From: Ruminococcus sp.
GTDB lineage: Bacteria > Bacillota > Clostridia > Lachnospirales > Lachnospiraceae
Direction: 5' to 3'
DNA length: 61,494 bases
NCBI GenBank assembly: GCA_023663085.1
Contig: JAMPIB010000014.1
Coordinates: forward strand, 1 to 61,494
Below, piece after piece: positions 38,893 through 54,825 of this stretch. Position 1 is the stretch's first letter, and every line of letters starts with the position of its first letter. Both the position numbers and the translations under genes were made by a program. The notes beneath the pieces are model-generated. The model was not told the DNA's origin, did not search any database, and saw nothing but the letters and a program-made list of their open reading frames with translations.

Positions 38893-39741
38893 CTATTCCA
38901 ACCCTTTCCCTGTCAGTTCCATAAAGACCGTTTCCAGATTCGGCTCTGTGGAATGAATTGTCTCGATACTTCCTGCCGCCAGATAATCCCTCACAGTTTC
39001 AGCCGCCTTACTGTCATTCCCGATTTCCATGCAGGTTCCGTCATAAAGGCGTATCTGCAGCTTGTTTTGATGATTATATTTCCGGCATATTTCTTTCGGT
39101 TCTCCGTATTCCACAATCGTTCCTTCATGCAAAAGCGCCACATGTCCGCAAAGTTTCTCCGCCTCTGCCATATTGTGCGTTGTCAGAAATATGGTTGCCC
39201 CACGCTTCTGCTCTTCCAGGATCAGCTCATGAATGCGTCTGGTCGTGGAAGGATCAAGCCCGCTCGTCGGCTCATCCAGAAATAAAATCTCCGGCTTATT
39301 TATGATCGCTCTGGCCAGCACCAGCCTGCCGCGCATCCCTTTCGATAATTTCTCTGCCGGCGTCTTTCCTTCCTCCGCCAATCCCACTTTGGCAAGTACT
39401 TCGTTGATCCGGCCAAGCGGAATATCATATATCCGGGTAAACAGTTTCAGATTATCATAACAGGAAAGCCGCCCGTACAACCCGTAATTATCCAGCATCA
39501 TCCCCATCTTTTTATACATTGTGCCGCTTATCTTCGCCGCCTCTTTTCCATCTGTCATGGCACTCCCGCCAGTCGGCTTCAACTGCCCCGTAATAATTTT
39601 GATGATCGTTGTTTTCCCGGCCCCCGACGGCCCCAGCAGACCGAAGATCTCCCCTGCCCCGATCGTAAAAGAAACCCCCTTCAACACCTCCTTTTCTCCA
39701 AACCGCTGCCTGACATCCTTTAAAACTATCTTCTCACTCAT
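38893..39741 (-). CDS. ABC transporter ATP-binding protein
   Basis: A 282-residue ATPase with Walker A GPSGAGKTT, signature LSKGMRGR, Walker B ILFLDEPTSGLD and a His switch in LTTHNMAEAEKLCG. The C-terminal extension of about 75 residues is typical of drug-export (DrrA-like) ATPases. ATG at 39741 is chosen (MSEKIVLKDVRQRF); the frame also permits 39762. It is separated from the DUF3021 gene by a long palindromic element and followed at once by its permease. Confidence 0.92.
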   Translation of the reverse strand: MSEKIVLKDVRQRFGEKEVLKGVSFTIGAGEIFGLLGPSGAGKTTIIKIITGQLKPTGGSAMTDGKEAAKISGTMYKKMGMMLDNYGLYGRLSCYDNLKLFTRIYDIPLGRINEVLAKVGLAEEGKTPAEKLSKGMRGRLVLARAIINKPEILFLDEPTSGLDPSTTRRIHELILEEQKRGATIFLTTHNMAEAEKLCGHVALLHEGTIVEYGEPKEICRKYNHQNKLQIRLYDGTCMEIGNDSKAAETVRDYLAAGSIETIHSTEPNLETVFMELTGKGLE

Positions 39742-39776
39742 TTTAGCTAAAACCCCTTCCATCTATACTATGGCGA

Positions 39777-39966
39777 TCATGAAACGCCGGGACATGCAGG
39801 CGGCGAAAAAAGGCTTCTGCTGACAGGCCCTTGAAAAACGCCGGCACTTAGTGAGTGGGATGCCTTGCATCTCACGAACTTAGTACCGCTGCGCTTTTTC
39901 ACGGAGCGAAAGCGTGCCTGAAAGCAGAAACTTTTTTCGCCACCCGCATGTCCCGGCGTTTCATGA
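39777..39966. other. Palindromic structured element 1 (candidate ncRNA or hairpin element)
   Basis: This 190-base non-coding element folds almost end to end. Outer arms 39777-39797 and 39946-39966 are perfect 21-base complements; a further 11-base stem (GGCGAAAAAAG/CTTTTTTCGCC), a 7-base stem and a 5-base stem follow inward. The core has CGGCACTTAG (39842-39851) and CTTAGTACCGCTGCGC (39879-39894) around a variable hairpin. The same core and its mismatches occur in element 2 (46021-46192), while the outer arms are unrelated. It lies 12 bases after the DUF3021 stop. Confidence 0.8.
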
Positions 39967-39978
39967 CCACCACATTCC

Positions 39979-40470
39979 TCATTCCTGCCCTGTGCTGTCT
40001 TTCTCCCTCTTTTTCACCCGTTCCAGCGCCTCCTGCATCTTCCGATTCTCCATACGTTCGTTTAATGCCGCGCAGGCCGCCGAGATCACGAAACAGACCG
40101 CAAACGATAAAAAGAACATACCCCACGGTTTCCACTCATCCACAGGAAACCACCCGCATAGAAAAATAAATACCGACACCACCAGAACCTCCGCTGCCAC
40201 CATACCGACTGTTCTGGCAATAAGTGTCATGTTTTTAATTATTGTATCCGTAAAAAACAGAAACCGCAGCGCCACCGTACAGACTGCCACCAACAGAAAT
40301 TCAAACATTGTCAAACAGCTTAGTCCCTCGCCGCCAAGTGAAAACATGGTCGAATATCCCTGGCATTCCTCTCCAACCACAATACAGAATACATTTAAAA
40401 TGAATACCGTGATGCCGAATATCATAAATACATTTCCTATATAATGAAACACCGTCTTTCTGTCTTCCAT
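39979..40470 (-). CDS. DUF3021 family membrane protein
   Basis: A 163-residue protein with four hydrophobic helices (YIGNVFMIFGITVFILNVFCIVV and three more) and a charged C-terminal tail (RMENRKMQEALERVKKREK). Gene order LytTR then DUF3021 then ABC exporter is a recurrent module in Firmicutes, where the DUF3021 protein is thought to sense or restrain the LytTR regulator. It lies 18 bases after the LytTR gene. The assignment rests on length, topology and neighbours. Confidence 0.8.
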   Translation of the reverse strand: MEDRKTVFHYIGNVFMIFGITVFILNVFCIVVGEECQGYSTMFSLGGEGLSCLTMFEFLLVAVCTVALRFLFFTDTIIKNMTLIARTVGMVAAEVLVVSVFIFLCGWFPVDEWKPWGMFFLSFAVCFVISAACAALNERMENRKMQEALERVKKREKDSTGQE

Positions 40471-44902: not shown

Positions 44903-45859
44903 TTATTCCGAATCATGAATTCCATGTTTCCTTAACAGGGCGCGAAGACGTTCTGTCTCTGTTTCTGCCTTTTGAAGCATAGCATCTTTCTCCGTGATAG
45001 TCTCTTGAAGTATCGCATCTTTCTCCATGATAGTCTCTTGGAGTATTGCATCTTTCTCCGTGATAGTTTTCAAAAGCAACGCATCCTTTTCTACGATAAT
45101 AGCGTCCTTTTCTGCAATAGCCCTTTCATAATTACGCAGATCCTGATAGTACTCCTCCCTGTCCCGGCACTGTTTTCGTATCTGCTCATCTGCACTGAGT
45201 TCAAATATTGTGTTTGCAGCCTCCTGTAAATATTCATCTCCGGCAGCTATCATAATGAGTTCCTCCCACGTAGCGGCTCGAAAAAGCTTCGCCCAATAAT
45301 CAATACCATAATTTCTATCTTCTTCCGTTGCCAATTCTATCTGTGATAAGTCTACCACACACAAGGTAAAGTTGTCATTATAAATCTGATGGTTATTTAC
45401 ATTCATGAGTTTATACGTGCTGTAAAATTCCGGACATTCCTTGAAAAGTGTATAATCCAGAAACCCGATATGTATGACCGCCGGACTCTCCCCATAATCC
45501 TGTCCATGATATAAACCGTCAAACGAACGGCAAAGATAATGCAGGGAACGATTATTCCAGTTCAATTGATTGGCAATCTGCATTTCCAGATTGATAAACG
45601 TATGGTTATTTAACACAACATTAATATCCAGGCGAAATTCTTTCTTTTCAATAGAATCTCCCAGAATAATGGGATTGGTGATCTTAACAGAAATGATTTC
45701 GCTTTCCTCCAGATGTAAAAGCGAACGGATAAGACCCCGCAAAACTTTATTGCTGGTCTGCAAAACGGCCCGAAACATATAATCATTCGTCATACTATAC
45801 GGAATCGCGCCATGCGCACTTTGCAATGAGAGGGTTATAACAGATTTGTTCTGATCCAT
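44903..45859 (-). CDS. Rpn family recombination-promoting nuclease / PD-(D/E)XK transposase-like protein
   Basis: A 318-residue protein. The N-terminal PD-(D/E)XK nuclease part includes TNDYMFRAVLQ, LDINVVLNNHTFINLEMQIANQ (Asp and ExQ active-site residues) and NRSLHYLCRSFDGLYHGQDY. Rpn relatives promote RecA-independent recombination. The C-terminus is a long coiled coil built of ten-residue repeats (EKDAILQETI) ending ETERLRALLRKHGI. ATG at 45859 follows AAAGGAG; the frame extends upstream into non-coding sequence. A decayed relative lies at 33001-33471. Confidence 0.9.
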   Translation of the reverse strand: MDQNKSVITLSLQSAHGAIPYSMTNDYMFRAVLQTSNKVLRGLIRSLLHLEESEIISVKITNPIILGDSIEKKEFRLDINVVLNNHTFINLEMQIANQLNWNNRSLHYLCRSFDGLYHGQDYGESPAVIHIGFLDYTLFKECPEFYSTYKLMNVNNHQIYNDNFTLCVVDLSQIELATEEDRNYGIDYWAKLFRAATWEELIMIAAGDEYLQEAANTIFELSADEQIRKQCRDREEYYQDLRNYERAIAEKDAIIVEKDALLLKTITEKDAILQETIMEKDAILQETITEKDAMLQKAETETERLRALLRKHGIHDSE

Positions 45860-46020
45860 AGATATGTCTCCTTTGTCCAATAGAATAAAACAGAATATAA
45901 AATACATAATATAAGATAGGATGATAAGTCTAAACCACTCATCCACTCAAGATATGTTCTTTATAGCACAAATATTAACAAAATGCAAGCACTTTTCTAT
46001 TTTCCCTCAAGTGGTCTCGG

Positions 46021-46192
46021 AAACGGAGCAGGCGGGAGACCAGGCGGGGAATATGGTACAATGCGAGGCCCTGTGAGGGCGTCGGCACTTAGGCTGTGTA
46101 CTTTACAGCCTTAGTACCGCTACGCCCAAACCGGCGTGCAAGCATGCCGAGCATGTACCATATCCCTGCCTGGTCTCCCGCCTGCTCCGTTT
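46021..46192. other. Palindromic structured element 2 (candidate ncRNA or hairpin element)
   Basis: A 172-base non-coding element with perfect 25-base outer arms (46021-46045 and 46168-46192), then an inner stem ATATGGTAC/GTACCATAT. The core CGGCACTTAG (46083-46092), hairpin GGCTGT/ACAGCC and CTTAGTACCGCTACGC (46110-46125) match element 1 at 39777-39966. A side hairpin CGGC/GCCG lies at 46132-46149. The outer arms share no sequence with those of element 1. It lies 46 bases after the ABC permease stop. Confidence 0.8.
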
Positions 46193-46237
46193 TCAAAACG
46201 CCTCCGCCATCACCATTCCATCGCCCATCTCTTCCTT

Positions 46238-54752: not shown

Positions 54753-54825
54753 AAAAATGAATCTGGTTTCATTTTATATGATAGGATGTGGTAAGTCAAT
54801 ATAAAATGAAAATGGATTCATTTTT
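54753..54825. promoter_or_regulatory. Large inverted repeat, likely TetR operator
   Basis: AAAAAATGAATC and TTTCATTTTATAT (54752-54779) are mirrored by ATATAAAATGAAA and GATTCATTTTT (54800-54825) around a 20-base centre. The palindrome lies 26 bases upstream of the TetR start and could hold two dimers. Confidence 0.75.

Follow-up and report, generated by a model that had tools for sequence, protein, structure and literature searches.

Long palindromes with a conserved folded core in a Ruminococcus genome are probably old copies of a gene-less mobile element

Introduction

A non-coding stretch of 190 bases that pairs with itself nearly from end to end lies within a LytTR/ABC operon of a Ruminococcus sp. 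genome, and its central part recurs in a second element of the same contig. Both lie in the window, that is, the whole 61,494-nt stretch of DNA that was analysed. The question raised by this locus is whether the palindrome is a structured RNA, perhaps regulating the operon, as the original prediction had proposed together with a covariance-model search and a covariation check, or a transposable element, for which fixed ends and target duplications across copies had been named as the telling signs. The analysis described here favours, with a probability of about 0.65, the reading that both elements descend from old insertions of short gene-less mobile palindromes with a core of conserved fold.

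Fold and extent of the two palindromes

Element 1 occupies positions 39771–39972 (no strand assigned; inverted repeat I1), in the gap separating an ABC ATPase gene from a gene that the original prediction had labelled DUF3021. Pfam bore out the assignments of LytTR, ABC ATPase and ABC-2 membrane proteins, but the protein labelled DUF3021 had no Pfam match at E 0.001. Pairing along nearly the whole length was borne out on both strands, with folding energies of −141.2 and −124.1 kcal/mol and z scores of −13.65 and −14.06, far beyond the shuffles (0/200 as good). The palindrome itself was correctly recognized, with its right end, at 39972, falling slightly past the end first assigned. The outer arms (39771–39812 and 39931–39972, + strand) are 42 nt long and 90% complementary, and the sequence of the left arm is largely private to this copy. 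The conserved core was placed at 39803–39928 by covariance model R1 (124.8 bits, E 1.9e-37; the copy is in the training set), where the + strand given is that of the model and no proof of a working strand. Within the core, the 5' side of the helix carries the conserved motif ACGCCGGCACTTAG (39838–39851, +), the 3' side carries the conserved motif CTTAGTACCGCTGCG with a CT bulge and the partner of a T-T mismatch (39879–39893, +), and a side hairpin, GC-GAAA-GC, presents a GNRA loop on the + strand (39906–39913).

Element 2 is a diverged copy with other arms at 46014–46199 (no strand assigned; inverted repeat I2). Its core was recovered by R1 at 46044–46158 (+; 72.1 bits, E 5e-20; in the training set), in line with the proposed recurrence of the central part, and its side loop reads GCAA by eye (46138–46141). 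The minus-strand motifs described as common to both copies are present. Rfam gave no match to the element in the window at gathering scores, and at E ≤ 1 the sole match from six loci was to a lncRNA, scoring well under its gathering cutoff, which agrees with the earlier statement that no named family fits. Blastn against phages and plasmids gave no match to the element, and nothing describing this element family was found in the accessible parts of the open-access literature.

Conservation of the core

Model R1 was built from 50 copies and comprises 125 positions and 26 pairs. Across these diverse copies 24 of the 26 pairs had changed on both sides, compared with 11.7 after shuffling; none of 500 shuffles reached 24 pairs, in a test that is inflated by the kinship of the copies, and slid structures gave 6–12, a control that is partly circular since these sequences also served to predict the structure. 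Paired cells amounted to 93.8%, versus 81.0% in shuffles and 30–53% in slid structures. The core fold, with its covarying helices and without an Rfam match, is therefore conserved as had been proposed. Core folding is kept while much of the core sequence changes, and cores measure about 110–165 nt within elements of about 120–310 bp that contain no genes.

A wider set of 109 copies (the 121 rows of A3 less 10 on the opposite strand and two weak ones) showed near-invariant core motifs. Of the core mismatches reported as kept, the T-T position was retained (106/109 copies, columns 60/122) and the C-A position varied. The side hairpin followed the form GC-GNRA-GC on the + strand in 218/220 copies of the first set (GAAA 94, GAGA 91, GCAA 16, GGGA 8, GGAA 8, GCGA 1; exceptions GAAG 1, ACAA 1) and in 105/109 of the wider set (exceptions AGGA 2, GATA 1, AGAA 1), and its closing pairs also covary. 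Among close copies, with less than 10% stem divergence, 319 of 363 differing positions were one-sided, so compensation appears to be slow and instant correction of one arm by the other is unsupported.

The near-invariant motifs and the GNRA rule are points in favour of a family-wide structured RNA with a function in the host, domesticated or dual-use, that was spread by transposition. Evidence as to which strand would act as such an RNA is divided. In counts drawn from non-independent copies, the model pairs favour the + strand (G.U 78 versus A.C 36), whereas columns 55/127, a pair omitted from the model, hold C.A 45, T-A 45, C-G 18 and T.G 0 with one gap; read on the − strand, every one of these is a canonical or wobble pair. 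Model-free counts favoured the − strand for both the inner arms (62:36) and the outer arms (389:294), and transversion mismatches in the outer arms (692) were as common as transitions. The strand signals thus conflict, with the GNRA rule and model pairs speaking for + and the 55/127 pair and the arms for −; the GNRA rule accordingly does not fix the + strand. This disagreement counts against an RNA with a host function, and hairpins formed in DNA would display both signals.

Copies in the genome and among related bacteria

At E ≤ 10, a blastn search of the window's own genome with element 1 gave 36 rows. Many were noise; they included 12 other core copies at E 3.2e-20 or better (74–90% identity across the matched part) and one fragment. 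R1 located 14 places in the same genome, element 2 included, with five further rows that duplicate these places on the other strand. Core matches were found in 44 of 98 relatives (own genome counted), all in one genus, and in 0/38 genomes of other families. A search of the same family with R1 at E 1e-4, along the lines of the proposed covariance-model search, gave matches in 122 of 299 genomes, almost every one of them from a different genus; the remaining 177 gave no match under strict filters, which lose weak matches. A class-wide draw under such filters gave matches in 9 of 341 genomes, all nine within the same family. Sampled carriers, which include Butyrivibrio sp. AE2015 and Butyrivibrio proteoclasticus P18 (79 loci, exact pattern only), are confined to this one bacterial family, very probably the Lachnospiraceae.

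Confinement to one family would suit the host-function RNA. The many family genomes without a match and the uneven copy number of carriers (15 to 50 element matches across six genomes) argue the other way, as does the absence of orientation bias relative to neighbouring genes described below, and we regard that explanation as unlikely.

In the window's genome each copy has outer arms of largely its own sequence, yet mostly complementary within the copy. Over 108 copies, outer arms agreed with their own partner at 91% of the positions aligned, compared with 74–75% for the arm of another copy, in short aligned stretches with a median of 14–17 nt. Perfect complementarity of the arms in every copy would be too strong a statement given the figure of about 91%.

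Target duplications and shared ends

Fixed ends and target duplications across copies were found in the relatives. Target duplications of 9 bp, allowing one mismatch at most, flanked 29 of 186 copies, compared with 0.75 expected when flanks were exchanged between copies. At 65 further loci (62 from other genera, three from the window's genus) five duplications were seen versus 0.35 expected, with two of the five being simple A/T runs. In genome G023 eight nearly identical copies all end in one 18-bp repeat (one mismatch in one copy) and are flanked by duplications of 9–10 bp such as GTTCCTGAAG and GTTCACAGGT. At up to two mismatches this terminal repeat had 125 + 136 = 261 matches, versus 0 + 1 for the reversed pattern. 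Copies in genomes G040 and G017 carry another terminal repeat, some with 9-bp duplications. Terminal inverted repeats are thus seen as 42-nt arms in the window copy, and the ends are constant among the copies of G023 and among those of G040/G017.

G023 also contains an autonomous element, about 1.7 kb long, that shares the ends of the copies there (one mismatch at the right end) and carries a transposase matching the NCBIfam IS4 model NF033592 (E 5.8e-37). No clear duplication was seen at L207 itself. This link to IS4 covers a single terminal repeat in a single relative, and relatives of the G023 transposase were found in 3 of the 12 genomes tested. From the fixed ends and target duplications it follows that the structure travels on a transposable element, and the element is a non-autonomous one.

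In the window's genome, the 13 blastn copies and element 2 had no 9-bp duplication at up to one mismatch (the best had 2–5 mismatches), so these copies are taken to be old insertions. A search of this genome at E 1e-10 for proteins related to the G023 transposase found none, and mobility here is accordingly deduced from the related genomes. An end motif of the genome's own had 27 matches versus 6 for the control at up to three mismatches, with no long insertion sequence recognized among the matches listed. The motif AACAGTTCAGC, seen in L343, L098, L082 and L062 as an outer arm end or an insertion target, is perhaps a further terminal repeat. In two genera, IS4-family insertion sequences lie inside the conserved core itself (L342:1180–3080 and L343:1200–3120; genomes G043 and G365), with TTACGGAGCG and GCACTTACG repeated at the insertion ends. 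The core thus seems to be target as well as cargo.

The site in the operon

The gene order LytTR, the gene labelled DUF3021, ABC ATPase recurs in relatives. The operon matched in 34 genomes (own included), of which the best 20, the own genome and 19 relatives, were examined; the ATPase gene was located downstream in 17 of the 19, with an operon gap of about −37 to 153 bp in these 17 versus 217 bp in the window. A profile search found no core in the operon gap of any of the 19 relatives examined, and a core fragment lies beyond the ATPase gene at L224. Since the genome holds 14 copies in all and the profile search detected no core in the gap of the 19 relatives, the regulatory role in the LytTR/ABC operon that had been allowed for is unlikely.

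The site in the relatives may not be simply empty. In L233, L234, L236 and L238 the sequence of the gap is similar to an arm of copy L007, with 1, 1, 2 and 7 of 300 shuffles, respectively, being as good, and a leftover arm is a possible explanation in these four related genomes. These possible remnants slightly lower the confidence in the reading as old mobile palindromes. The idea that the outer arm of the window copy is local flanking DNA received no clear support, as 17 to 204 of 300 shuffles matched equally well in the six gaps of at least 40 bp. The core of element 2 has, at a distance of about 100 bp, a neighbouring gene with a PF12784 domain (PD-(D/E)XK nuclease family transposase; 44903–45946). 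This gene was discarded as a linked partner, its homologs at E 1e-8 occurring in 2 of 285 element loci, both of them the window's own place.

Neighbouring genes and the polarity of pairs

Cores lay within 60 bp of a gene 3' end in 56% and 46% of cases and of a 5' end in 24% and 27%, on simple ORF calls. This preference would fit a transcription terminator or a stabilizer of mRNA 3' ends. Spacers behind genes are short anyway, single copies have no orientation bias relative to genes, the window copy lies between genes of the same direction, and positions 39700–40050 contain neither a terminator-like nor a sigma-70-like promoter site. A terminator or stabilizer is thus improbable.

When neighbouring copies were compared, with divergent defined as GNRA strands pointing outwards, a strong polarity was seen at close range. 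Among 24 pairs less than 600 bp apart in the fetched loci, 20 were divergent, four had the same direction and none was convergent, with some of the paired loci probably being orthologous and not all independent events. The proportions changed with distance: six divergent and three same at 600–1500 bp; three divergent, two convergent and 10 same at 1500–3000 bp; and no divergent, five convergent and five same beyond 3 kb. In six whole genomes at least seven divergent pairs, one same and no convergent pair closer than 600 bp were counted by eye among the matches listed, two of them already within the 24, and the seven divergent pairs were confirmed. Pair members often carry different arms. In genome G387, eight of the 14 matches listed (16 found) form four divergent pairs (L323–L326), of which L323–L325 are enclosed in a further repeat around GTGCAATTTGGG that yields a larger composite palindrome. 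At L199:336–1910 two inverted copies about 1.2 kb apart surround an open frame that, from reading its translation, looks like a short-chain dehydrogenase.

Close pairs of one polarity, including the four in G387, recall REP/REPIN-like systems, in which inverted dimers are moved by a Y1 (RAYT) transposase. The distribution of that enzyme does not follow the element. Y1_Tnp (PF01797) had no match in 4 of the 12 element-bearing genomes tested, including G277 with 50 element matches and G193 with 43, but did match in 11 of 14 genomes for which no element was listed, and a Y1 transposase was therefore rejected as helper. The target duplications on single copies and the core length also speak against such a system, which we consider highly improbable.

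Proposed mechanism and relation to known systems

For the preferred reading, old gene-less mobile palindromes, the following mechanism is proposed. Several DDE transposases would move the copies in trans and would read the arm ends only, so that arms would come to differ between lineages. The folded core, as single-stranded DNA or as an RNA hairpin, would aid spread or tolerance beside gene ends. An extension, in which an ancient folded core, preserved throughout a bacterial family, adopts the ends of any able resident transposon and a dedicated protein reads its three-way junction, giving the head-to-head pairs of fixed polarity, is tentative and possible at somewhat long odds.

The element fits the kind of a MITE or extragenic palindrome, and differs by keeping its middle rather than its ends. 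ERIC/IRU and similar sequences are likewise long, intergenic, imperfect palindromes in many copies, in other hosts; to our knowledge, neither exchangeable arms nor a GNRA side hairpin common to the whole family belongs to their features. IS4-family MITEs are also short and gene-less with terminal inverted repeats and target duplications of 9–10 bp, and in G023 the ends are common to an autonomous IS4-family element. Unlike in those MITEs, a conserved, covarying core is common across genera under different ends, and variability is greatest in the outer arms. REP, BIME and REPIN sequences, the subject of PMC3116915 and PMC8266576, are dispersed extragenic imperfect hairpins that form inverted pairs of fixed polarity; by comparison, the core here is much longer, target duplications occur and no dependence on a Y1 transposase was seen.

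As a rule, short derivatives of transposons retain their termini and shed what lies between. In this family it is the middle that persists across genera while the ends change, a pattern suggesting a function for the core itself. The element family is abundant in a major family of gut bacteria, supplies a ready covariance model and offers tests of selection on folded RNA versus folded DNA.

Two further features were observed in the window. Positions 54753–54825 hold a separate A+T-rich inverted repeat of 27 nt with a 19-nt spacer, which by eye does not belong to the element family. The sole Rfam match in the window is a partial tRNA at positions 1–52, truncated where the contig starts.
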